Assembly: GCA_017512425.1 (NCBI GenBank)
Contig: JAFWGI010000015.1
Span: 186,001-250,000, forward strand
Reading direction: 5' to 3'
DNA from: Hyphomicrobium sp.
GTDB taxonomy: Bacteria > Pseudomonadota > Alphaproteobacteria > Rhizobiales > Hyphomicrobiaceae
DNA length: 64,000 bases
The translations under genes and the position numbers were made by a program. Shown piece by piece: positions 378 to 11,464 of this stretch. The notes beneath the pieces are model-generated. The model had not been told where the DNA came from. It made no database searches and saw nothing but the letters and a program-made list of their open reading frames with translations. Within the stretch, counting starts at the first letter, position 1; each line of letters starts with the position of its first letter.

Positions 378-3300
378 GTGATGAGCCCATTGCGTAGACA
401 TTTTAAATCGAAGCAAAATCAAATGGCAGCAACGAGCGAGAATATTGGCGGCCTCTACAGCAAGCTCGGCAACCGCTACGAGGCGAAATGGCTGGTCCTC
501 AAGCTGCTTGAGGTTTTGAGTGGCAAGGCACGCAGCCTCAAGGTTGAAGGTGTCGGCCCGGAATTCGCCGGCTTTGAGGCTGCTGTCGGTTACGGCGACT
601 GCTTCGACTGGCATCAGACCAAGATCAATGCGCCGAACGGCAATTGGACTCTTGGTGCGCTTCGGCGAGAAGGCGTGCTCGACGCCTTCAAGCGGCGCCT
701 CGAGGCTTCACCGACCGACCGGTGCTGGTTCATATCACAAGATCCGGTGCGTGCTTTTCGCAACGTACCGAAGAAGGCACGCTCAACGGACGGCGAGGTC
801 GATTTCCAACGCCTGCTCAATAAGGAAGAGCGGGATGCCATCCACGAACTGGCGAGGCATTGGGGCACCGAACCGGACATCACGCGGCAATGGCTGGCGC
901 GCTGTATCTTTGAGATCGCAGGTGAAGACGCAATCCAGCGAGAAACAGAACTCTATCTTGATTGGTACTTCGAGGATGCCGCGAGCGCGTTCGCAGTTCT
1001 CCGCGACCACATCGAGCAGAATTTCAACAAGACGATCTCGACAGAGAAATTGCGGAGCGCACTGCGCTCAATCGCTGGCCTTAAGCTGAAACCGGAGGTG
1101 ATGGACCCGACCATTCTTGAGCGGATCAGACGCGAAACAGTCGACTACCTGAAAACTTATGTTCCATTCGGCGCCGACGGGCACACCATCGAAAGATCGC
1201 AGACAACGGTGGTTCACGATCTTCTGTCGCAATCTGGGGGCCCGACCATCGTGCTCCTCACGGGCGTGGCGGGCAGTGGCAAGTCAGAAGTGGTGCGTGG
1301 CGTTGTTGAGCAGCTTGAGCAGAGCAGCCTATTGACGCTCGCGTTCAGGGTGGACCAACACCTTGCCTGCAAAAATTCAAAAGACCTCGGAATTGATCTC
1401 ACCGGACGGGCCGAGAGCCCGGCATTGACGCTGGCACGGATATCTCCCGGCAAGACAAGCGTGCTCGTAATCGATCAAGTTGACGCCATTAGTGAAGTAT
1501 CCGGACGCAATGGCGCGGTGCGCGAGACCGTACTCCGTTTGCTCGACGAGGCCCACAATCTGAAGACCGTCCGGGTTCTCCTGGTGTGCCGCACATTCGA
1601 TCTCGACAACGATGCTCGGCTCAAGACCTGGAAGCAGGCCGCTCAAGTGATCGAGGTCGGAGTACCCCTGCTCGATTGGACAAACGAGGTTCAGCCGTTT
1701 CTCGTATTGCGCGGAGCGAGCACCGGCGCTTTGACCGCGGGTCAGAAGGACCTGTTATGCCTTCCCCTAAATCTGGCACTGTTTCTCGAGGCCTCCGGCG
1801 ATGATTTGTCGTTCGTCAGCCGCAACGACCTTTTTCTGCGCCTGCTGACAAAAAAGGAAAGAGCGATCGCTCAGGACCGGGTATTGGGATGGACGGCATC
1901 TGCGGCGCTGGCCGAGCTGGCTCGATGGATGAGCGACCGGCAGCGGCTCGATGCTCCGGCAAGCGTGCTTGACAGATATCCAAGAGCAACCGACTTGCTT
2001 GCTTCGGAGCATCTGGTCGTCAACGTGCGTGAGAAGCTCAACCTTTTCCACGAGAGCTTCTTCGATTTCCTCTTTGCCCGTCAGTTCGTTCATCAGCGGC
2101 AATCGCTGCATGATTTGTTAATGTCGACGGAGCAGCACCTTTTCCGCAGGACGCAAACCCGACAGATCCTCGAGGCCCTGCGGCAAGCCGACCGGCCGCG
2201 CTACCTGCGCGAGCTGACGGAGCTGGTGGAGAGCGGCACGATTCGCTTTCATATCAAGAACGTCGTCGCGCTATGGCTCGGAACGCTGCGCGATCCAACG
2301 TCGGACGAGTTCAACATCGTCTATCGACTCGATGATCCGGGAAAGGGGTTGCCGCTCATCGTGCGCGACGCGCTTCTGGGATCGTCGGGCTGGTTCGATT
2401 TGCTCGCTGCAGCCGGATGGATTGACCAGCAGCTTGAAAGTGTTGTCGAGGAGCGCCGAGAAGCCGTGTTCCGGTGGCTCGATCGAATGGCTGCTGAGCG
2501 CCCCAACGAGATCGCAGACCTACTCGAACGATGGTGGGGGAGCGATACTGCTCGCGGACGCATACTGCTTGGGTGGTTTCGTTTCGTCTCTAAAGGACCT
2601 GGAGACGAGGCGCTCGAGCGGCTGTGCGAGCTGGTCATTCGCAATACCCCAATCGATGCTAACTGGAACCCATTGGGCAAGAACAACATGCTTCTGCCGA
2701 AGTGGGTTGCTGAACGTAGGGAGCACGGCGGAACCATTCTGCGCGCATTGTTTGATGCCTGGTTTAAGGCCAACTCGGGCCGGCATCCGTTCGAGCGCGA
2801 CATCATTCAAGATATCGACGATCATTGGCTTAGCGAGTTAGCGAAAACCTCGCCAGAGGCCTTCCTCGAGGGCGCTGGCCCCGCCCTAGTAACGACTCTG
2901 ACCGTCATCGCAGCTAAGGAGGCGCACGGGGAGCGGGATTACACTTTCGATCGGCACCCTAGAGCCGGTGAGGTTTACGGAGCCGATGCATTTCTGGCGC
3001 TCTACCGAAGCTCGCTCTGTCAGCTTGCTGCCGATGCACCTGAGGTTGCGCGGGGCCTGCTCACGACGTTCGATCCCTCTCTCCATCTCTTCTTCCGACA
3101 CCTGCACTTGGAAACTATCGCGGCAAGCCGCGGCGCGCTCGGCCAGAACCTCGTGGCTCTCCTGAGCTTCCCGGATCTTGGCAAGGCCGGCTGGGCTGGT
3201 GTCCCGTGGTTGTCGTTGGCTAAAGCGGCTAAGGCCTCCTTGCCGTGTTTGGCGGAAGACGAGCGGAAGCAGCTGGAAGCGTATTTGATTGCTCTAAACG

Positions 3301-5021
3301 GTGAGCTGTCGGACGCACGCGATCTGGTTCATGAGATACGGAAGAACGGCGAGGACGGATGGCGCAATCGGAAATACTTGATGCACCTGCTGTCGCGATC
3401 AGGCCATGCGCGGTGGTGCGTGTTGAAAACGGTCGGGCCTCAGCAGCTGTCCGCCACGGGGCAGAAACTGCTCGATGAGGGTGATCGCAAATTCCGCGGC
3501 GAGACGGTGCCGGAAGCCGATCGCATGCGCGGCGGCTGGGTCCATTCCCCAATCGCCAGAGAGCGGGCAGCATTCATGAGCGATGTCCATTGGCTCAAGG
3601 CGATGAAGACATACGACAGCGGCCGTAAGGAGGATCGGCGCGATATTCTGGCCGGCGGCCCGTCGCAACTCGCTGGCGAGCTGCAGCATCTAACGAAGAC
3701 TGATCCTCATCGGTTCGTCGCTCTGATGCCGCGCATCCCTTACACGGCGAATGCCGTCTATATCGACAACATTCTGGGCGGGTTGGCCGAGAGCATTGAT
3801 GTTGTCACCCCGATCCTGAAGGAGGCTGTGCTGCATGCGCACGGCCGCTCGGTCCATCAGCACGCAAGCGCGATCGTCAGGATCTTCGAGCGGCACCCGA
3901 GCCTCGCCGAAGATGCCGAGATGATGGCGTTACTGTTCTGGTACGCCAAAAACGCTGAGATCGGAGCGGATGCAGCGATCGACATTGGTTCGGAGAAGGA
4001 CATCGTTACTATTGATGATCTGCTGGATAGGGGAGCGCGGCTCCACGTGCGCGGCATCAATGGTCCGCGCGGCGCAGCGATGGAGGCCCTTGGTCAGGTG
4101 CTCTGGCAGGTGCCTTCCGCCATCGAGCAGGCTTGGACACTGCTTGATGAGCGCATCGCGTGTGAGCAGTCCATCGCGGTCCGCTGTTGCATGACGCGGC
4201 CGTTAACACCGCTCTTCAACGCGGATCGGCAGAGATGTGCCGCATTATTCGAGAAATTGCCGCTGAGCACGACAGACGATACAGGAGCGGACGCCGATGA
4301 TTTCGATCGTGGTCTCGCCCCGCTCGCCACATATGAAGCGACTCGGCTAATGCCGTACTTTGTCCATCAAGTCCCCGAGGCGGGTCGGCGTCTCGTCGAC
4401 CGGCTTCTGGCGTCGCGCAGTGAGACGTTCCGTCGGATCGGCGCCTGGCACGCGATTGGAGCGAGCTTCTCGATCGAAAGCTACGCCGGAATCGCCGACC
4501 TCCTCGTCGAGGAAAGCGTTGAAATCCGCCGCCTTGCCGCGGCCACCGCTGCAGGTGCTGCAGAGCATCAGGAGTTCCGGGGCCGGGCGGAAAGCTGGCT
4601 CAAACGGTTCTTCGATGATCCGGACAAGCTCGTGCGCGGACAGGCCGCCGACGTATTCCGTGGCATTGAAAGTACAGATTTCGGCAGGTTCGTGCCGCTG
4701 GCCAAGGCGTTTCTCGACAGCCTCGCCGCGATCGATTCCTCCTGGAGCTTGCTGCATGCGCTCGAAAGCGCGACGTGCGACACGCACGGGCTTGTCGTAA
4801 AGGCGGCTGTACGACTGACGACTGACCTCGATGCCCGCGGCACGGCCGGTGGCCGGCATATGTCGGAGCTTCACACTCTTCAAGACCTTATACGCAGAGA
4901 CTATGCGGCCTCGGAAGGGAACGCGGCGCTTCGCACGCAACTGCTTGATGTCATCGATCGCCTGCTCTCGGGAGGTTACTATGGTGTCGAGGCGATTATA
5001 AAAGCGCACGAAAGAAGCTAG
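378..5021 (+). CDS. Avs-like STAND NTPase with N-terminal Cap4/DUF4297-type nuclease domain
   Basis: The protein has 1547 residues from the GTG at 378; an in-frame ATG at 423 (residue 16) still lies before the conserved region. Residues 23-215 resemble the Cap4/DUF4297 dsDNA nuclease fold: YE at 34-35, an acidic pair D74/D77, QTK at 80-82 and WT at 90-91. Residues 285-575 form a STAND/NACHT-like NTPase: Walker A GVAGSGKS at 296-303, Walker B VLVIDQVD at 362-369, a sensor-like LLVCRTFD at 401-408 and the STAND-typical HESFFDFLFARQF at 558-570. The remaining 960 or so residues are helical, with HEAT-like repeats toward the end. In known antiviral STAND proteins such C-termini sense phage proteins and release the N-terminal nuclease. 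The domain order is visible; the antiviral role is inferred from architecture and from its place beside recombinase elements. No partner gene is needed in that family. Confidence 0.75.
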   Translation: MMSPLRRHFKSKQNQMAATSENIGGLYSKLGNRYEAKWLVLKLLEVLSGKARSLKVEGVGPEFAGFEAAVGYGDCFDWHQTKINAPNGNWTLGALRREGVLDAFKRRLEASPTDRCWFISQDPVRAFRNVPKKARSTDGEVDFQRLLNKEERDAIHELARHWGTEPDITRQWLARCIFEIAGEDAIQRETELYLDWYFEDAASAFAVLRDHIEQNFNKTISTEKLRSALRSIAGLKLKPEVMDPTILERIRRETVDYLKTYVPFGADGHTIERSQTTVVHDLLSQSGGPTIVLLTGVAGSGKSEVVRGVVEQLEQSSLLTLAFRVDQHLACKNSKDLGIDLTGRAESPALTLARISPGKTSVLVIDQVDAISEVSGRNGAVRETVLRLLDEAHNLKTVRVLLVCRTFDLDNDARLKTWKQAAQVIEVGVPLLDWTNEVQPFLVLRGASTGALTAGQKDLLCLPLNLALFLEASGDDLSFVSRNDLFLRLLTKKERAIAQDRVLGWTASAALAELARWMSDRQRLDAPASVLDRYPRATDLLASEHLVVNVREKLNLFHESFFDFLFARQFVHQRQSLHDLLMSTEQHLFRRTQTRQILEALRQADRPRYLRELTELVESGTIRFHIKNVVALWLGTLRDPTSDEFNIVYRLDDPGKGLPLIVRDALLGSSGWFDLLAAAGWIDQQLESVVEERREAVFRWLDRMAAERPNEIADLLERWWGSDTARGRILLGWFRFVSKGPGDEALERLCELVIRNTPIDANWNPLGKNNMLLPKWVAERREHGGTILRALFDAWFKANSGRHPFERDIIQDIDDHWLSELAKTSPEAFLEGAGPALVTTLTVIAAKEAHGERDYTFDRHPRAGEVYGADAFLALYRSSLCQLAADAPEVARGLLTTFDPSLHLFFRHLHLETIAASRGALGQNLVALLSFPDLGKAGWAGVPWLSLAKAAKASLPCLAEDERKQLEAYLIALNGELSDARDLVHEIRKNGEDGWRNRKYLMHLLSRSGHARWCVLKTVGPQQLSATGQKLLDEGDRKFRGETVPEADRMRGGWVHSPIARERAAFMSDVHWLKAMKTYDSGRKEDRRDILAGGPSQLAGELQHLTKTDPHRFVALMPRIPYTANAVYIDNILGGLAESIDVVTPILKEAVLHAHGRSVHQHASAIVRIFERHPSLAEDAEMMALLFWYAKNAEIGADAAIDIGSEKDIVTIDDLLDRGARLHVRGINGPRGAAMEALGQVLWQVPSAIEQAWTLLDERIACEQSIAVRCCMTRPLTPLFNADRQRCAALFEKLPLSTTDDTGADADDFDRGLAPLATYEATRLMPYFVHQVPEAGRRLVDRLLASRSETFRRIGAWHAIGASFSIESYAGIADLLVEESVEIRRLAAATAAGAAEHQEFRGRAESWLKRFFDDPDKLVRGQAADVFRGIESTDFGRFVPLAKAFLDSLAAIDSSWSLLHALESATCDTHGLVVKAAVRLTTDLDARGTAGGRHMSELHTLQDLIRRDYAASEGNAALRTQLLDVIDRLLSGGYYGVEAIIKAHERS

Positions 5022-5028
5022 CTGAGTG

Positions 5029-5063
5029 CTGGCGCCGACTAGGCATTTGCAGCCGAAAGCATG
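5029..5063. repeat. Left boundary motif of unit A
   Basis: TGGCGC at 5029-5034 and CCGAAAGCATG at 5053-5063 correspond to TGGCGC at 8199-8204 and CCGAAGCATG at 8238-8247 in front of unit B. The T-arm-like sequence present in the second copy is missing here, so this copy is degenerate. Confidence 0.4.
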
Positions 5064-5115
5064 TCTAACACGTGGGGCCGCTTGCCGCATCCGTAAGGGT
5101 CGGCCGTCGATGCCA

Positions 5116-5272
5116 GAACCGACTGGACTTCGCCGCGGAAGCACGCATTGGTGTCCGTGACGGTAGCCACTGAAGTGGATTGACCGGAGACAAGGGTCAG
5201 CCTCGCAGAACGCGGGGCTTTGGGTGGTGGGAGCGCCAACTATGGCACTCCGAAAACCACGGTGCCCTCGTC
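5116..5272 (+). promoter_or_regulatory. Conserved structured leader of unit A
   Basis: About 150 bases before the DUF3489 start codon are related to the leader of unit B. The best block runs 5212-5237 and differs from 8415-8440 at one of 26 positions; an earlier shared patch includes CGCATTGGTG. Reading it as protein in either direction is not needed to explain the conservation. GGCAC at 5244-5248 can pair with GTGCC at 5262-5266, and the GGTGGTGGG at 5223-5231 can pair in part with ACCAC at 5256-5260, just before the ATG. It probably controls translation or contains a recombinase binding site. Confidence 0.55.
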
Positions 5273-5644
5273 ATGACCACAAAGACAATCGACAAATCCA
5301 CCAAATCGGAACGGTCGCCCGTTGCACCACGCGTGTCCAGCAAGAGCGACAAATCTAGCCGAGCTCAGGCAGCGACTGCGACCAAGGCTCGCAAACGCGA
5401 GGAGACGCCCGAGCAGCAATCCGGCCAAGCGCCAACGACAAAGCGCGCACAGCTGCTCGGACTTTTGAGCCGTCCGGAAGGCGCGAGCATTGAGGAGTTG
5501 ATGCGCGCCACTAATTGGCAGCAGCACAGTGTTCGCGGCTTTCTGGCCGGAACGGTTAAGAGAAAAATGGGTCTCGCGCTGACCTCGTCCAAGGTCGACG
5601 GTGAGCTTAGGCGATACCGGATCGCCGCACGCCGGGGCCGCTGA
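5273..5644 (+). CDS. DUF3489 family protein, unit A
   Basis: A 123-residue protein. The ATG at 5273 is chosen because it matches the start of the unit B homologue (MTT) and because the sequence upstream aligns with the noncoding leader of unit B. The N-terminal half is low complexity and rich in Lys, Ser, Thr and Ala. The conserved C-terminal 65 or so residues (RAQLLGLLSR to the end, including TNWQQHSVRGFLAGTVK) are typical of DUF3489 and look like a winged helix-turn-helix. The stop is followed one base later by the DUF2924 start. DUF3489 has no assigned biochemical role; DNA binding is inferred from the fold-like pattern and the basic tail. Confidence 0.8.
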   Translation: MTTKTIDKSTKSERSPVAPRVSSKSDKSSRAQAATATKARKREETPEQQSGQAPTTKRAQLLGLLSRPEGASIEELMRATNWQQHSVRGFLAGTVKRKMGLALTSSKVDGELRRYRIAARRGR

Positions 5645-5645
5645 G

Positions 5646-6095
5646 ATGGCCAAGCTAGCCCTTGATGTCGGCGCGGAGATCGCGCGGCTTGAGCAACTCA
5701 CGCTCGATGCGCTTCGCGAAGAATGGCGGCGGATACATCAGACGCCGCCGCCGCGGCGATTGAGCCGGGACATGCTGCTGCGCGGGCTTTCCTACAAGCT
5801 GCAAGAGGACATATTCGGCGGCTTGCCGAAGGTCCTTCGCCGAAATTTGCAGGCTTCCGACCCAAGCGTAACGTCACCGTCTGCTGAGCGGTCACTACGG
5901 GCATCGTTCAAGCCGGGCACGCGCCTCGTGAGGGAATGGCACGGTGTCACGCACACGGTCGTTGTCCTTGAGAATGGCGTCGAATGGCGGGGGAAGCACT
6001 ACAGATCATTGTCGGTCGTCGCGCGCGAAATCACCGGAGCTCACTGGTCTGGACCGCGGTTTTTCGGCCTTACGGCGGAGCGCACCGATGGATGA
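5646..6095 (+). CDS. DUF2924 family protein, unit A
   Basis: A 149-residue protein starting at the ATG one base after the DUF3489 stop; the corresponding start in unit B is at the same place. The N-terminal part (IARLEQLTLDALREEWRR, then LSRDMLLRGLSYKLQE) is helical and characteristic of DUF2924. The C-terminal part is a small beta-rich module (GTRLVREWHGVTHTVVV, then YRSLSVVAREITGAHWSGP) that resembles the RAMA-type module found beside DNA methylases; that comparison is by eye. The ATGGATGA at its end couples it to the next small ORF. Co-occurrence with DUF3489 and a recombinase suggests an accessory DNA-binding or directionality role, which is inference. Confidence 0.8.
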   Translation: MAKLALDVGAEIARLEQLTLDALREEWRRIHQTPPPRRLSRDMLLRGLSYKLQEDIFGGLPKVLRRNLQASDPSVTSPSAERSLRASFKPGTRLVREWHGVTHTVVVLENGVEWRGKHYRSLSVVAREITGAHWSGPRFFGLTAERTDG

Positions 6096-6288
6096 GCGCG
6101 CTCGCATCAAGTCCACAAGACTGGTCTTCGCAAGGGTAACAGGAGAAATGGAGGACGCATCGGTTGCTGCCGCTGAGGGGCAGGCCATTGCGGATCTCGC
6201 CACAGCACAACGTGCGTGTGATCGCCTAATCGTTCTCTTGGAAGTTTGTCTAAGGCGCCTACGTCGATTGCGACGGAGCCTCGGATGA
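6088..6288 (+). CDS. Small helical protein between DUF2924 and recombinase, unit A
   Basis: A 66-residue protein whose ATG overlaps the DUF2924 stop by 8 bases and whose TGA overlaps the recombinase ATG (ATGA). The residues after about 20 are predicted helical, ending in a very basic leucine-rich stretch (RRLRRLRRSLG). Its counterpart in unit B is 65 residues and sits in exactly the same overlapping position, although the sequences have diverged strongly. Conservation of position and of both overlaps is the main evidence that it is translated. Function unknown. Confidence 0.65.
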   Translation: MDERARIKSTRLVFARVTGEMEDASVAAAEGQAIADLATAQRACDRLIVLLEVCLRRLRRLRRSLG

Positions 6289-8012
6289 CGCGTATCGCTT
6301 GTGCAATCTACACGCGCAAATCGACCGACGAAGGGCTTGAGAAGGAATTCAATTCTCTCGATGCTCAGAGAGAGGCCTGCGAAGCGTATATCACGAGTCA
6401 GAAGCATGCCGGTTGGACTGCCGTTCGCGACATGTATGACGATGGTGGCCTTTCCGGCGGAACGATGGAGCGTCCCGCGCTGATGCGTCTGCTCACCGAT
6501 ATCAAAGCGGGAAAGGTGCAGATTGTCGTTGTCTACAAAGTCGACCGGCTGACGCGATCTCTTGCTGACTTCGCCAAGATCGTCGACGTGCTTGACGCTC
6601 ACGGCGCCTCATTCGTCTCGGTGACGCAGCAGTTCAACACGACGACATCGATGGGCCGTCTGACGCTCAACATGTTGCTCTCCTTTGCGCAGTTCGAGCG
6701 CGAGATCGCTGGCGAGCGGATACGCGACAAGATTGCGGCGTCGAAGGCGAAGGGTATGTGGATGGGCGGCACTGTTCCGCTCGGATACGACGTCAAAGAT
6801 CGCAAGCTGCTCGTCAACGAGACCGAAGCCAAACTCATTCGAAGAATCTTTTCGCGATACGCAGAGTTCGGCTCAGTGAGCCTGCTTCAGGCGGAACTCG
6901 ACACTCAAGGCTATCGCAGCAAGCGCCGCGAAGGCGCCAACGGACGTTCGAACGGTGGTCGACGTTTCTCGCGCGGGATCCTGTATCTCATCCTGCAGAA
7001 CCCGCTCTATCGTGGCAAGGTCGCGCATAAGGGGAATGTCTATGATGGCCAGCAAGAGGCGATCATCGATGCAAAGCTGTGGGACTTGGTTCAGGCCAAA
7101 CTCGCATCGAACCGGACGGAGCGCGCACTTGCCGTTGGGGCCGAAGCACCAAGCCTACTCTCGGGCCTAATCTTCGATAGAGATGGCAATCACATGACGC
7201 CTACCCACGCGAACAAGCGTGGCAAACGCTATCGCTACTACATCTCGGCGCCACTGCTGGATCGTGGAACCCCTGGTGAAAACCCCATTCGCATCCCGGC
7301 GCTGGAGGTCGAAGGATTAGTCTGTGACCGCCTCCGAAACCTGCTTGCACGGCAAACAGAACTCGTTCGGCGGTTGTCGCCTCTTCATCTGACCGTCACT
7401 CAGCTCGAGGTGTCTCTCAGGACGGCCGCCTCATTGACGGGATCGTGGACATCACTCCCGCCTGATGAAATCAAGGCATTCGTGCAGGACGCTGTCGATC
7501 GCGTAGTCGTGCAACCCCGCGAGATAGAAATCACGGTTTCGGTTTCGGGTCTGGCGCGGCGTCTTGGTGCCAAACTCAAGATCGAGCGTAGTGTTGTCGA
7601 CGAGACCTTTATACTGCATGTCGCCGCGCATCTCCGAAGTGCCTGGAAGGGCAAACGGATTATCGTTGGTGAGCAGATCGGCCCTAAGCCCGATCACCAA
7701 TGCCTCAAGTTGTTTCGGGAGGCTTTTGCGGCGCGTGCCCTGGTTATCTCGGAAGGCAACGAGAGCCTTACTGCGATTGCGAGGCGACTTGGGAAGTGTC
7801 AGGTCCGGCTCACCGGGCTGGTTCGCCTGTCCTATCTGGCGCCGTCGATCGTCGAAGACTTGGTCTCGGGGAGGCATCCGATCGGGCTGTCGGCCAAGCA
7901 GCTCTTGCGCCGCTCGAAAGACCTGCCGGTGGACTGGCAGCAACAACGCAAATTCCTCGGGCTTGCGGAGGCCGTTCCAGCACCGTTCGCTCGTGCGTTT
8001 CCTGGCCGCTGA
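6285..8012 (+). CDS. Large serine recombinase, unit A
   Basis: A 575-residue recombinase, started at the ATG that overlaps the small ORF stop; this gives the same N-terminal spacing as the unit B enzyme. The resolvase-type catalytic domain holds the nucleophile Ser13 in YTRKST, the active-site arginine region VDRLTRSLADF, and the helix SFAQFEREIAGERIRDKI. The recombinase domain follows (VPLGYDVKDRKL to about residue 280), with the motif ILYLILQNPLYRGKV. The usual zinc-ribbon region (GLIFDRDGNHMTPTHANKRG) has lost the paired cysteines, as in many alphaproteobacterial relatives. It would cut and exchange DNA at att sites to move or excise the unit. The enzyme looks intact. Confidence 0.9.
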   Translation: MTRIACAIYTRKSTDEGLEKEFNSLDAQREACEAYITSQKHAGWTAVRDMYDDGGLSGGTMERPALMRLLTDIKAGKVQIVVVYKVDRLTRSLADFAKIVDVLDAHGASFVSVTQQFNTTTSMGRLTLNMLLSFAQFEREIAGERIRDKIAASKAKGMWMGGTVPLGYDVKDRKLLVNETEAKLIRRIFSRYAEFGSVSLLQAELDTQGYRSKRREGANGRSNGGRRFSRGILYLILQNPLYRGKVAHKGNVYDGQQEAIIDAKLWDLVQAKLASNRTERALAVGAEAPSLLSGLIFDRDGNHMTPTHANKRGKRYRYYISAPLLDRGTPGENPIRIPALEVEGLVCDRLRNLLARQTELVRRLSPLHLTVTQLEVSLRTAASLTGSWTSLPPDEIKAFVQDAVDRVVVQPREIEITVSVSGLARRLGAKLKIERSVVDETFILHVAAHLRSAWKGKRIIVGEQIGPKPDHQCLKLFREAFAARALVISEGNESLTAIARRLGKCQVRLTGLVRLSYLAPSIVEDLVSGRHPIGLSAKQLLRRSKDLPVDWQQQRKFLGLAEAVPAPFARAFPGR

Positions 8013-8198
8013 CCCGCAAACGCAAGTCCCCGAAATCGCCGAACAGAGACGCGACCGGGTTTCGGCCCGCAAACGGCGGTCTCGGACGTCTCTTTGGCGG
8101 TAACGGAATGTGCGGTAGCCGCTAACTCGCGGAAAGTCGGGGGGAAGTCGGCGCTGGCGTAAAGCCAGCCGTGACGTCTCTACACCCTTAAAGTGGAC
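8013..8198. other. Noncoding tail of unit A
   Basis: No convincing gene. A CTAACTCGCGGAA at 8122-8134 has a near copy (CTAACGCGCGGAA, 11312-11324) in the tail of unit B, and each lies about 64 bases before the following TGGCGC junction. This argues that the two tails are homologous. Confidence 0.5.
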
Positions 8199-8250
8199 TG
8201 GCGCTTCGAGCATGATTCGAACCTGAAGCATTCACTTCCGAAGCATGCTC
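8199..8250. repeat. tRNA-Arg 3'-end-like junction between units A and B
   Basis: Bases 8199-8225 match 22 of 27 bases of the tRNA-Arg 3' end at 11388-11414, including TGGCGC (which covers the encoded CCA) and GATTCGAACCTG. An inverted repeat, GAGCATG at 8208-8214 and CATGCTC at 8244-8250, frames the site. The T stem could not form, so this is not a working tRNA. It fits an old attachment-site junction. Confidence 0.45.
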
Positions 8251-8321
8251 CATGGCGTTTCATCGAGCCGCAAGACTCGCTATTAACTGACCCGTCCAGG
8301 ACGCGCTTCTCCAGCCGATTT

Positions 8322-8478
8322 TGAACTCGACTTCTGCCGCAAAGGACGCATTGGTGGTGTGACAGACGCCGGCGATAAGGGTGCCGAAAATTTGCAGGGC
8401 TCGCCTCGCGGATTGCGGGGCTTGGGGTGGTGGGAGCGCCGATAGGGCGCGACCCGTGAACCCTCGGAGCCCACCACC
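8322..8478 (+). promoter_or_regulatory. Conserved structured leader of unit B
   Basis: Related to the leader of unit A, with a 26-base block at 8415-8440 that has one mismatch. GGTGGTGGG at 8426-8434 is exactly complementary to CCCACCACC at 8470-8478, which ends at the base before the ATG. Inside it GCGCC at 8436-8440 pairs with GGCGC at 8446-8450. The outer stem would bury the ribosome-binding region of the DUF3489 gene, suggesting translational control of the whole operon. Confidence 0.6.
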
Positions 8479-8844
8479 ATGACGACAATTGAAGCCCGCG
8501 CCGCAAGTCAGACAAAACGAGCCACACCCTCGACGTTGGCCAAAGCGGCCAAAGCGAAGGCAATTGGGACGTCGACTACGGCCAAACTCACCTCTGTCAA
8601 AAACGCCGCAAGAGACGACGTGCACGCGGCACGCGTCACCAAGCACGATCGCATTCTGACATTGCTGAGCCGGCGCGAAGGCGCGACCGTTCCGGAAATG
8701 ATGGAAGCGACGGGATGGCAGCAGCACAGCGTGCGCGGCTTTCTCGCCGGCACGGTCAAGAAGAAGCTCGGCTTCACGATGGCCTCGTCAAAGGCACCGG
8801 GCGAATTGCGTCGTTACCGCATTGAAGCCAAGCGGGGCCGCTGA
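8479..8844 (+). CDS. DUF3489 family protein, unit B
   Basis: A 121-residue protein with a Lys/Ala/Thr-rich N-terminus and a conserved C-terminal module (LTLLSRREGATVPEMMEATG, then WQQHSVRGFLAGTVKKK). It is clearly homologous to the unit A protein at 5273-5644. The ATG directly follows the 3' arm of a 9-bp perfect inverted repeat, so its translation may be switched by leader structure. Its stop is one base from the GTG of the DUF2924 gene. The role is unknown; the winged-helix-like C-terminus suggests a DNA-binding regulator. Confidence 0.8.
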   Translation: MTTIEARAASQTKRATPSTLAKAAKAKAIGTSTTAKLTSVKNAARDDVHAARVTKHDRILTLLSRREGATVPEMMEATGWQQHSVRGFLAGTVKKKLGFTMASSKAPGELRRYRIEAKRGR

Positions 8845-8845
8845 C

Positions 8846-9304
8846 GTGAGGAAAGCAAAACTCGACGTCGCGGCTGAGCTTGCGCGGCTCGAAGCGTTGA
8901 CAAGCTTCGACCTGCGCGGCGAATGGCGGCGGCTGCACGGAATGCAGCCGCCAAAGCGCCTCTCCCGAGATCTCATGATCCGCGGCATCACATACAAACT
9001 GCAGGAGCGGGCGTACGGCGGCCTCGCCAAGTCTGTGCTGCGCCGGATTTCCGGGGCGGAGCTTGAGACGTTGTCAAAATGTGAAAACCGCAAAGCTCCT
9101 CGTGTGACCGTACAGCCGGGCACGCAGCTGGTTCGCGAATGGAATGGGCAGACGCACACCGTTCTCGTCCGCTCCGACGGCGTCGAATGGCGCGGCAAGC
9201 GCTACCGGTCGCTGTCGGTCGTCGCACGCGAAATCACCGGCGCGCACTGGTCGGGTCCGCGGTTTTTTGGCCTGACTTCGAGCAAGGGGGCCAGCGATGG
9301 CTGA
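8846..9304 (+). CDS. DUF2924 family protein, unit B
   Basis: A 152-residue protein. The GTG at 8846 is chosen because it is one base after the DUF3489 stop, as in unit A, and gives the matching N-terminus (RKAKLDVAAELARLEAL). The helical N-terminal region with LSRDLMIRGITYKLQE and the beta-rich C-terminal region with GTQLVREWNGQTHTVLV and YRSLSVVAREITGAHWSGP are shared with the unit A protein. The final 20 or so conserved residues are nearly identical in the two units. It overlaps the next small ORF by 8 bases (ATGGCTGA). Function unknown, likely linked to recombinase action. Confidence 0.8.
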   Translation: MRKAKLDVAAELARLEALTSFDLRGEWRRLHGMQPPKRLSRDLMIRGITYKLQERAYGGLAKSVLRRISGAELETLSKCENRKAPRVTVQPGTQLVREWNGQTHTVLVRSDGVEWRGKRYRSLSVVAREITGAHWSGPRFFGLTSSKGASDG

Positions 9305-9494
9305 CAGCCGTCTCGATGCTGTCTGTGAGGCATTCGCTGAACTCACTGGCGCCCTTGAAGACGCGGCGCTCATCGCATCTGTCGGTCAAGGCGTCAAAAC
9401 GGTCGAGGACGGACGGCGTCAACTCCAGCTCATCTCGAAAGAGTTTGATCGGATCGGCCGCTGCCTCGACCGACTACAGGGGCTTCTCCGATGA
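9297..9494 (+). CDS. Small helical protein between DUF2924 and recombinase, unit B
   Basis: A 65-residue, mostly helical protein (LDAVCEAFAELTGALEDAAL, then FDRIGRCLDRLQGLLR). It begins inside the DUF2924 stop and ends inside the recombinase start (ATGA). Only weak similarity to the 66-residue unit A protein is visible, but the position, length and overlaps are the same. That argues for a real translated gene evolving faster than its neighbours. No function can be assigned. Confidence 0.65.
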   Translation: MADSRLDAVCEAFAELTGALEDAALIASVGQGVKTVEDGRRQLQLISKEFDRIGRCLDRLQGLLR

Positions 9495-11179
9495 AAAAGC
9501 TGAACTGCGCCATCTACACGCGCAAATCGACTGAGGAAGGTCTCGAAAAGGAGTTCAACTCGCTCGATGCCCAGCGAGAGGCGTGTGAGGCGTACATTGC
9601 GAGCCAGAAGCATGCAGGCTGGTTTCCAGTCCGCGACATGTATGACGACGGTGGCCTTTCCGGCGGCACGATGGAACGGCCCGCGCTTCAGCGCCTGCTT
9701 GCCGACATCAAGGCCGGCAAGGCGCAGATCGTCGTCGTCTACAAGGTCGACCGGCTGACGCGCTCGCTCGCCGACTTCGCCAAAATCGTAGACATTATGG
9801 ACGCTCACGATGCTTCGTTCGTCTCGGTGACGCAGCAGTTCAACACGACGACGTCCATGGGCCGTCTTACACTCAACATGCTGCTCTCATTTGCTCAGTT
9901 TGAGCGGGAGATCGCGGGGGAGCGCATCCGCGACAAGATTGCGGCGTCGAAAGCCAAAGGCATGTGGATGGGCGGCAACGTTCCGCTCGGCTACGACGTC
10001 AAAGATCGCAAGTTGATCGTGAACGAGGCAGAAGCAGAGATGATCCGCATGATCTTCGGGCGGTACGCCGAGATTGGATCAGTTCGGCTTCTGAAATGCG
10101 CGCTGGACGAGCGCGGGATTGTAAGCAAGCGCCGTGCGAAAGCCGGTGTCGTGCGTGCAGGCGGCAACCGACTTTCCAGCGGCGCGCTTTATAACCTCCT
10201 GCGGAATCCGATCTACCATGGCAAGATTGGGCATCAGGGCAAAGTCTATCCAGGGCAACATGAGGCGATCATCGATCCCGACCTCTGGCAACGCGTCCAG
10301 GGCATGCTTGCTGGCAGCCTGTATGCCCAAAAGATTGGGGCGGCAGCCGAGGAGCCGAGTCTGCTTGCCGGGCTGATCGTGGACGGCGACGGGCGCCGCC
10401 TGAGACCGATGCATGCCGTTAAAAAGGGCCGCCGTTACCGGTACTACGTGTCGCCACCGTTCAAGAGCGCCGAGCGAAAAGCTTCCGACGGCTGGCGCAT
10501 TCCTGCGGCTGACATTGAAGAAATTGTCCTCGATCGCCTCCGCACGTTCTTTGCCTCGGAGCAGGGCGTTGAAGAGGCCTTGGTATGCCTCGACCTTGAC
10601 GACGTCCATCTTCGGTCGGCCCGTTTAACGGCAACTGGTCTCGCCGAAGCTTGGTCAGACTTGTCGTCGATCGAAATTCGTGAGCTTGTCCAAGCTTTTG
10701 TTGAGAAAGTCGTCGTAAGCGAACAAGGGGTTGTCGCTTCGATCAAACGGGCGGCCGTTGCATCTCGCCTGCTGGACAATTGTAGACCGCCATTGGAGGG
10801 TGAAGCCGGTACGATCGAACTGCGCGTCGAAGCCAAGCTGCGCCGCGCGGGCCAAGGAATTCGGTTGGTCATCTGTGGCGGCGTGGAAAATCCCAATAAG
10901 CAGATGATTGCCCTGCTGCGAGATGCGCACGCAACGCGTGAGTCGCTTTTGACTGGACGCGATGCAACGATCGACGCGATGGCGCAGCGGCTTGGTGTCA
11001 AACGAGACCATCTGACAGCGCACATTCGCCTGACGTATCTCGCGCCGCACATCGTGTTTGCGCTGGCGACACGTCGCCCGCCAGTGGGACTGACTCCCGC
11101 GCGTCTGCTCTCGGTGTGCAAAGACTTGCCGCACGACTGGCAGGGCCAGTGCGCAGTCCTCGGACTTGAGACGCGATAG
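9491..11179 (+). CDS. Large serine recombinase, unit B
   Basis: A 562-residue resolvase/invertase-type recombinase. Ser13 in YTRKST is the expected nucleophile; VDRLTRSLADF and SFAQFEREIAGERIRDKI complete the catalytic domain; VPLGYDVKDRKL opens the recombinase domain. The region LLAGLIVDGDGRRLRPMHAVKKG stands where a zinc ribbon is normally found but has no cysteine pairs. The C-terminal DNA-contacting part differs strongly from the unit A enzyme while the catalytic part is almost unchanged, so the two may recognise different att sequences. The start overlaps the small ORF stop. Confidence 0.9.
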   Translation: MKKLNCAIYTRKSTEEGLEKEFNSLDAQREACEAYIASQKHAGWFPVRDMYDDGGLSGGTMERPALQRLLADIKAGKAQIVVVYKVDRLTRSLADFAKIVDIMDAHDASFVSVTQQFNTTTSMGRLTLNMLLSFAQFEREIAGERIRDKIAASKAKGMWMGGNVPLGYDVKDRKLIVNEAEAEMIRMIFGRYAEIGSVRLLKCALDERGIVSKRRAKAGVVRAGGNRLSSGALYNLLRNPIYHGKIGHQGKVYPGQHEAIIDPDLWQRVQGMLAGSLYAQKIGAAAEEPSLLAGLIVDGDGRRLRPMHAVKKGRRYRYYVSPPFKSAERKASDGWRIPAADIEEIVLDRLRTFFASEQGVEEALVCLDLDDVHLRSARLTATGLAEAWSDLSSIEIRELVQAFVEKVVVSEQGVVASIKRAAVASRLLDNCRPPLEGEAGTIELRVEAKLRRAGQGIRLVICGGVENPNKQMIALLRDAHATRESLLTGRDATIDAMAQRLGVKRDHLTAHIRLTYLAPHIVFALATRRPPVGLTPARLLSVCKDLPHDWQGQCAVLGLETR

Positions 11180-11387
11180 CCGCCACACGACTTACTGTAA
11201 ACGATGCGAATCTGACCGGCCGAAAATTGGCGGCAGAGATAAAACGGGCAATCAGCCGGCGTGCGTGACGGAGAGACGGACCCTTATGCGCGACGGAAAA
11301 AACCCAGGCCTCTAACGCGCGGAATTTGCGGTGAATTTTTGCACGCAGAAATCGCGTAATATGCAGTTATATCAATGTGTTATATCT
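11180..11387. other. Noncoding tail of unit B
   Basis: No gene seen. It carries CTAACGCGCGGAA at 11312-11324, matched in the unit A tail, and an AT-rich stretch at about 11355-11387 just before the tRNA-Arg 3' end. Confidence 0.5.
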
Positions 11388-11464
11388 TGGCGCACCCGGC
11401 AGGATTCGAACCTGCGACCTCTGCCTTCGGAGGGCAGCACTCTATCCAGCTGAGCTACGGGTGC
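11388..11464 (-). tRNA. tRNA-Arg (anticodon CCG)
   Basis: The reverse complement folds as a full cloverleaf: acceptor stem GCACCCG/CGGGTGC with discriminator G and an encoded CCA, a D arm with AGCTGGATAGAG, the anticodon arm CTGCC-CTCCGAA-GGCAG giving anticodon CCG for the CGG codon, and a T arm with GGTTCGAATCC. Its 3' end faces the recombinase units. tRNA 3' ends are common insertion sites for genomic islands. Confidence 0.95.

Follow-up and report, generated by a model that had tools for sequence, protein, structure and literature searches.

Organization of the locus

The window analysed here is a 64-kb stretch of DNA from Hyphomicrobium sp. (G000:C6:186001-250000; genome size, 3.45 Mb). 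Its subject is a pair of neighbouring four-gene units, A and B, each encoding a large serine recombinase, which probably represent integrative elements inserted at the 3′ end of a tRNA-Arg gene. The features, including open reading frames (ORFs) with lengths in amino acids (aa), are as follows.

5030..5035, TGGCGC, possible but unestablished left border of A (one of 55 plus-strand copies)
5273..5644, plus strand, DUF3489 protein A (Pfam)
5646..6095, plus strand, DUF2924 protein A (Pfam)
6088..6288, plus strand, small ORF A, 66 aa (ORF list, shuffle comparison)
6285..8012, plus strand, large serine recombinase A, 575 aa (Pfam)
8122..8198, right arm of A, with tail motif CTAACTCGCGGAA (8122-8134)
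8199..8204, core TGGCGC at the A/B junction, a displaced tRNA 3′ end
8205..8250, left arm of B; GATTCGAACCTG at 8214-8225 resembles a tRNA T-arm
8479..8844, plus strand, DUF3489 protein B (Pfam), candidate directionality factor
8846..9304, plus strand, DUF2924 protein B (Pfam), RAMA-like DNA-binding, putative cofactor
9297..9494, plus strand, small ORF B, 65 aa (ORF list, shuffle comparison with small ORF A)
9491..11179, plus strand, large serine recombinase B, 562 aa (Pfam; Foldseek to Bxb1 and PhiC31 integrases)
11312..11387, right arm of B, with tail motif CTAACGCGCGGAA (11312-11324), then ATATCAATGTGTTATATCT reaching the tRNA
11388..11393, core TGGCGC (encoded CCA plus three bases), putative proximal junction of B
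11388..11464, minus strand, tRNA-Arg(CCG), intact (ARAGORN), target on the attB side

The order DUF3489, DUF2924 (RAMA-like), small ORF and large serine recombinase is common to A and B. An initial annotation had assigned the same four genes to both units, and this was borne out by Pfam matches to PF11994 (DUF3489; E-values of 7e-29 in A and 3e-29 in B) and PF11149 (DUF2924; 3e-45 and 6e-46); the small ORFs are weakly alike, their score being reached by 1 of 1000 shuffles. Best named matches of the DUF2924 proteins were mostly from Hyphomicrobium. The tRNA-Arg(CCG) gene was the sole tRNA found by ARAGORN in the window; it faces recombinase B, the stop codon of which lies 209 bp from the tRNA 3′ end.

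Ends of the two units

TGGCGC occurs at 5030, 8199 and 11388, with spacings of 3169 and 3189, and the third copy is the 3′ end of the tRNA-Arg gene, as initially annotated. Of the unit lengths first given, 3189 stands and 3170 becomes 3169, the first hexamer starting at 5030 and not at 5029. The hexamer has 55 copies on the plus strand of the window, nine of them between 5030 and 11388, and was for this reason dropped as evidence of ends when taken alone. Positions 8199-8225 match the tRNA-Arg 3′ end at 22 of 27 positions, and the tail motif CTAACKCGCGGAA is present on the plus strand of the 64 kb only twice, at 8122 and 11312, so that the tails of A and B do match; both similarities are beyond chance. 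The right arm of B also resembles those of relatives that target tRNA-Gln. By sequence comparison, both ends of B and the right end of A are confirmed. The proposed match between the left ends held in part: CCGAA(A)GCATG is present in both units, its spacing differs, and the best local alignment of the left ends is a 7-base match. A left end of A at 5030 is thus suggested.

Recombinase A is 57% identical to recombinase B and 85% identical to that of a unit at C6:147583-149310. A and B, noted at first as related, are thus distinct elements of one family. The border of A at 5029 is unproven. A recent tandem duplication was ruled out by the 57% identity together with the separate positions of the two recombinases in the tree.

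Recombinase and accessory proteins

Both recombinases matched PF00239 and PF07508 over the cut-off, and no tyrosine integrase match was found among the scanned proteins of A and B, the integrase genes of which carry serine recombinase domains. In large serine recombinases the catalytic serine lies in an N-terminal Y-x-R-x-S motif; YTRKS was invariant across 24 aligned family members. The zinc ribbon PF13408 fell below the cut-off in recombinase B (E-value of 0.0019) and exceeded it in phage AcaML1; in 64 of 70 members (those of the 93 compared below in which the region could be located) it has 0-1 Cys. An AlphaFold model of the recombinase (predicted local distance difference test, 78.8; predicted template modelling score, 0.39) was compared with the PDB using Foldseek, and the nine best matches were serine integrase structures, including Bxb1 and PhiC31 (E-values from 3e-17 to 6e-14). 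The C-terminal 136 residues of recombinase B matched a separate small subunit of AcaML1 (28% identity, E-value of 1e-5). In phage-borne relatives (several viral-contig loci among L154-L218, and AcaML1, L249), the C-terminal domain seems to be a separate ORF, annotated in AcaML1 as the small subunit.

DUF2924 partly matches the RAMA DNA-binding domain (excerpt of PMC11342252). It is probably a partner of the integrase in acting on DNA, and DUF3489 may serve as a directionality factor in excision.

Adjacency to tRNA genes across the family

Family loci were collected with a DUF2924 query (the best 80 of 368 matches, giving 79 loci) and a recombinase query (69 matches, around some of which 40 regions were taken), to which this genome and G015 were added. 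Of 103 genomes from the bacterial family, 31 had members by the recombinase query. Hits of at least 380 bits and at least 500 aa with a distinct C-terminus were kept, and broken or edge copies were excluded. Among the resulting 93 distinct complete recombinases, DUF2924 was upstream in 92, partly by selection with the DUF2924 query, and DUF3489 was present in 64. An intact convergent tRNA lay within 600 bp in 48 of 86 units (those having at least 600 bp downstream), compared with 45 of 3570 control ORF ends, for which any open frame of at least 150 aa was taken rather than curated genes. Four more units with shorter flanks brought the number with a convergent tRNA to 52 (distance 150-401 bp, median 218), and a tRNA in the same direction was seen in 1 of 93 units.

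Fifteen tRNA species were hit, among Gln, Ser, Tyr, Thr, Lys, Leu, Asn, Ala, Met and Arg tRNAs. Target labels changed 38 times on the tree compared with 47.2 times in shuffles, none of 200 shuffles being as low; on this tree, targets persist along lineages for a time, with frequent switches. B falls in a 12-row clade in which the other tRNA-adjacent members (5) are all at tRNA-Gln(CTG), so B seems to have switched its target.

Related units in the same genome and minimal elements

DUF2924, DUF3489 and a family-type recombinase occur together six times in this genome; a seventh PF07508 recombinase is without DUF2924 and DUF3489. Besides A and B, the units are as follows.

C7:140-143 kb, unit near tRNA-Gln(TTG), at a distance of 258 bp
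C7:264-277 kb, two tandem units near tRNA-Gln(CTG), the nearer at 208 bp
C6:146.7-149.5 kb, unit with 85% identity to A, TGGCGC at its end and no tRNA

In the tRNA-proximal units, the distal ends (C7:274254, over 46 nt; C7:140100; and window position 8199) resemble displaced tRNA ends. B is cargo-free at 3189 bp; the tRNA-Gln(TTG) unit measures 3117 bp and a relative, L309, 3100 bp. The tRNA-Gln(CTG) unit extends over 9558 bp, of which 6.6 kb, including a RelE-helix-turn-helix pair, precede the operon. Tandem arrays at one target were found for A-B at tRNA-Arg, for the two units at tRNA-Gln(CTG) on C7, and at L309 and L305; arrays at tRNA-Gln thus occur in this genome and in others. In L305 (the same as L076), two recombinase-less units of about 353 bp (6844-7549), 327/353 identical and bounded by tRNA-end cores, lie between a full unit and tRNA-Gln(TTG). 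They share the tail of the full unit and look like internal deletion derivatives.

Cores, arms and the probable position of strand exchange

All 52 tRNA-side ends carried TGG, the encoded CCA. The motif GA[CG]T[TG][AG], chosen after inspection, was present within 14 nt outside TGG in 22 of 52 ends, compared with 0 of 468 neighbouring windows (background, 1.2%). Distal ends open with a six-base core of the target type (TGGCGC for Arg, TGGCTG for Gln and TGGCGG for Ser), followed by element-specific arms. One arm type, CAGTCT-n-CGAAC-n-GTCTC, was found after TGGCGC at C6:149497, upstream of the tRNA-Arg in this genome; after TGGCTG at five Gln-type sites, of which the one in G020 is 39.7 kb upstream of tRNA-Gln on the same contig; and after TGGCGG at one Ser-type site on a viral contig with no tRNA in view. 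Outside the core, C6:149497 and L301 align with a score of 27, the maximum of 1000 shuffles being 8. These alignments indicate that the core varies with the tRNA type, whereas the arm is a property of the element.

A second arm type, seen in relatives of B, resembles the tRNA T-arm. In the Gln-type ends, C was found at position 9 in 6 of 8 and at position 13 in 6 of 8, where tRNA-Gln(CTG) has G and T. When tail homology alone was used, with no tRNA-like pattern, 14 of 39 tRNA-less units scored above shuffles and met a TGG core; among these 14 is unit A, for which the search chose an internal TGG lying about 100 bp before 8199. The idea that all distal arms mimic the T-arm was dropped, since the pattern search had preselected the motif, and of the 14 ends from the tail-homology search 6 carried it. 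Several ends lack a TAACCC dyad noted in the arms, which was dropped as well. The target-derived distal bases number about six in most B-like and CAGTCT arms, and 14-46 tRNA-like bases were counted at other ends. Position 12388 of L064 is a displaced tRNA-Gln end (25/25 bases) about 160 kb from the intact tRNA on the contig, which may reflect recent insertion of another element type or a rearrangement.

Taken together, the TGG-ended tRNAs, the cores and the arms point to strand exchange within about six bases of the end of the tRNA gene, probably at the tRNA 3′ terminus.

Variation between genomes

The tRNA-Arg(CCG) query had a match in 60 of 60 genomes, and 30 loci were read, two of which (L038 and L053) meet a contig end within 136 bp of the tRNA. 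A DUF2924-type recombinase at this tRNA was found only in the present genome among the 30; a different serine recombinase was at the locus in G003, G013 and G019, and a fragment of one in G008. At tRNA-Gln(CTG), different family recombinases were found in G003 and G020 and none in G001 at the thresholds used, the other flank being 91.5-92.9% identical among the three. Downstream flanks at this tRNA differ between most of 15 relatives; G015 and G016 share theirs. Occupancy of the tRNA sites therefore varies. In the comparison of tRNA-Arg(CCG) alleles proposed at the outset and in that at tRNA-Gln(CTG), no clean empty allele was found among the loci read.

Proposed mechanism and alternative explanations

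We consider A and B to be integrative elements of one family, the large serine integrase of which inserts at a tRNA 3′ end, and give this reading a probability of about 0.82. It rests on the adjacency to tRNAs in one orientation, the target-type six-base core at displaced ends and the element-specific arms. Repeated insertion at one tRNA site by serine recombinases, suggested at first from A and B, is likewise supported by the convergent tRNAs (48/86), the tandem tRNA-Gln arrays and the target-type cores. According to the proposed mechanism, the integrase would bring a site of the excised circular form together with the tRNA 3′ end and exchange strands close to the terminus (CCA and some three further bases), leaving the tRNA gene intact. 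The restored tRNA would be a target again, so that later elements would stack between the tRNA and the older element. DUF2924 would join the integrase on DNA, with DUF3489 possibly serving in excision. A bolder reading, which we hold to be less likely than not, is that target recognition is divided between arms that stay constant in the element and an exchangeable core of six bases, taken from the end of whichever tRNA is used. One integrase type could then retarget among many tRNAs by core change alone, and every insertion would regenerate the target, yielding stacked elements that are cargo-free (3.1-3.2 kb) or recombinase-less (about 353 bp).

Several points weigh against the main reading of insertion at tRNA 3′ ends. 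The left end of A is a weak point, 38 of 86 evaluable units had no tRNA within 600 bp, and no alignable empty allele at tRNA-Gln(CTG) was found among 15 relatives (12 over 20-60 kb). A downstream tRNA was found at only 10 of 80 viral-contig loci, all convergent and 377-5200 bp from the match, with none within 600 bp of the ORF end used; this is explained in part by the C-terminus being in a separate ORF there and by many contigs ending nearby. The 16 distal ends of the pattern search were selected on the T-arm-like motif, which is missing from 8 of the 14 cores found by tail homology. L064 12388 is identical to tRNA-Gln(CTG) over 25 bases, C7:140100 differs from it at position 9 in another way, L294 retains 14 of its bases, and L297 and L310 retain about 14 bases resembling tRNA-Ser ends (their tRNAs not fetched). 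With 14-25 bases retained at L294, L297, L310 and L064, the core may be longer in some clades. In addition, the word tRNA is absent from the main text of PMC9203015, on phage WO recombinases.

In another reading, crossover takes place in the T-loop or anticodon, a habit of many tyrosine integrases, and each distal end would be a decayed copy of a long tRNA 3′ half. C7:274254 matches 46 nt of tRNA-Gln(CTG) at 89% (41/46), other ends match their tRNA over 25-43 nt, and L064 12388 keeps all 25. This was demoted to an alternative, which we regard as improbable, because the near-identical arms of the two 353-bp units (possibly copies of each other) differ from their tRNA, because non-tRNA bases at positions 9 and 13 are shared by most Gln-type arms of different genomes (6 of 8 at each), and because the arms after the core are alike at one Arg-, five Gln- and one Ser-type site; the AcaML1 repeat, moreover, is only 10 bp (excerpt of PMC3826726). 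Somewhat less improbable, though still unlikely, is that the integration modules no longer move at all and are inactive relics, left next to tRNAs by ancient events or by homologous recombination. Broken relatives (L077 and L070) and copies with internal stops in G080 and G120 would fit this; all six recombinase frames of the present genome are open, AcaML1 is called inducible in the excerpt cited, and the occupant of tRNA-Gln(CTG) differs among G001, G003 and G020 beside a well-conserved flank, all of which speak against dead remnants.

Two forms are considered for unit A: it may be cargo-free (3169 bp) or the integrase of a larger island with a defence system. The second form, to which we give slightly less than an even chance, would be an island of about 44.7 kb from C6:149497 to window position 8199, carrying Hma genes and an NTPase as cargo, with TGGCGC at 5030 occurring by chance. 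C6:149497 is a displaced TGGCGC core with a family-type arm, and the interval from this core to A includes HmaA, HmaB and HmaC (PADLOC; G000:C6:173240-183566, outside the window). Copies of TGGCGC are frequent in this DNA, and the L305 leader has a similar one at a similar spacing. On the other side, 5030 lies 243 bp before the DUF3489 match, near the values of two cargo-free relatives (280 and 283 bp), and 8 bp after the stop codon of the NTPase. The NTPase is listed here.

378..5021, plus strand, 1547-aa NTPase (weak AAA/nSTAND1 matches), putative island cargo left of A

It had no PADLOC match and may be a STAND-type cargo protein.

Other serine recombinases at tRNA genes

For a negative control, the 30 best PF07508 loci from the bacterial family were taken; no DUF2924 match was present in any of these loci. 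Eight of the 30 were dropped from the motif scan, the query being unmatched, and six from the ORF scan; 3 of the 24 recombinase ORFs left were too near a contig end. Of the 21 evaluable ORFs, 13 meet a convergent tRNA, all overlapping it, and none meets one in the same direction; the intended control set is thus itself tRNA-adjacent. Nine of the 13, and one further ORF at a contig end, stop 43 nt inside tRNA-Met(CAT); the C-terminus of these ten, VAG(A/V)GFEPTTFRL, is read from the tRNA antisense strand. Across L362-L390 (29 loci), canonical serine recombinases without DUF2924 often end inside tRNA-Met, Thr, His or Arg genes, the last residues being antisense-encoded. L055 (1548-3059) has an open frame with a TrwC relaxase match and a weak recombinase zinc ribbon match, running up to tRNA-Arg in G039.

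The overlap of PF07508 recombinases with tRNAs suggests that serine integration at tRNA ends is broader than the DUF2924-recombinase family. The phenomenon thereby gains in general interest, and the elements in the window become less singular. If a whole serine family and a second type overlapping tRNA genes use tRNA ends, mapping may have overlooked islands of Alphaproteobacteria, the borders of which could now be traced. The modular core would offer a direct test of what limits target choice by serine integrases, and these enzymes could become tools for insertion at conserved sites with the gene preserved.

Comparison with known systems

In open-access full-text literature on DUF2924 or DUF3489, nothing on tRNA integration was found by title or abstract start, and no publication on this recombinase family was found among the open-access papers listed. 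That tRNA targeting is mostly known from tyrosine integrases, as initially stated, agrees with excerpts of PMC4383910 and PMC3218068. The Islander definition shares with A and B the intact adjacent tRNA and differs in requiring a tyrosine integrase. It also names a tRNA gene fragment at the distal end, where the family has about six target-derived bases in most B-like and CAGTCT arms and 14-46 tRNA-like bases at other ends.

The closest system is AcaML1 (JX507079), which like B encodes a DUF2924 protein followed by a serine recombinase, 51% identical over residues 6-360. It is described as an inducible phage with a transfer-messenger RNA (tmRNA) gene as attB and a 10-bp repeat (excerpt of PMC3826726). 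The record opens with CCACCATTTA and closes with the identical ten bases, which are preceded by a T-arm-like stretch (host tmRNA not fetched). With this attB and repeat, AcaML1 is an independent published case in agreement with exchange at the tRNA end. Unlike A and B, it is a full phage with a recombinase split in two ORFs, the target is a tmRNA and not a tRNA, and no DUF3489 was found among the four AcaML1 proteins scanned. Phage WO of Wolbachia shares the DUF2924-recombinase gene pair, with a recombinase about 33% identical; for one variant, attB is given as a magnesium chelatase gene (PMC9203015).

The following systems were compared by description, from excerpts of the papers cited. Int of the Ralstonia filamentous phage phiRSM uses the core TGGCGGAGAGGGT at tRNA-Ser; it is described as a small resolvase/invertase-type recombinase, with one tRNA only (PMC3816273). 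The Mycobacterium actinomycete integrative and conjugative element integrates into a tRNA-Leu gene by a serine recombinase, which is called rare, and differs in being conjugative and actinobacterial, with eight similar enzymes at one tRNA; the same source names this group and phiRSM1 as the rare serine cases at tRNA genes (PMC3218068). A Paracoccus phage provides one case of a serine recombinase at tRNA-Met (PMC6536676). The Dehalococcoides ssrA islands (DsiB) also involve a serine recombinase and the tRNA-like tmRNA 3′ end, with several islands behind one ssrA; they differ in T-loop insertion, a 20-bp repeat, two serine recombinases and different partner genes (PMC3146451). Serine integration at tRNA or tmRNA ends is thus already published and called rare, and the DUF2924-recombinase family, found at many tRNAs, is a variant of it.

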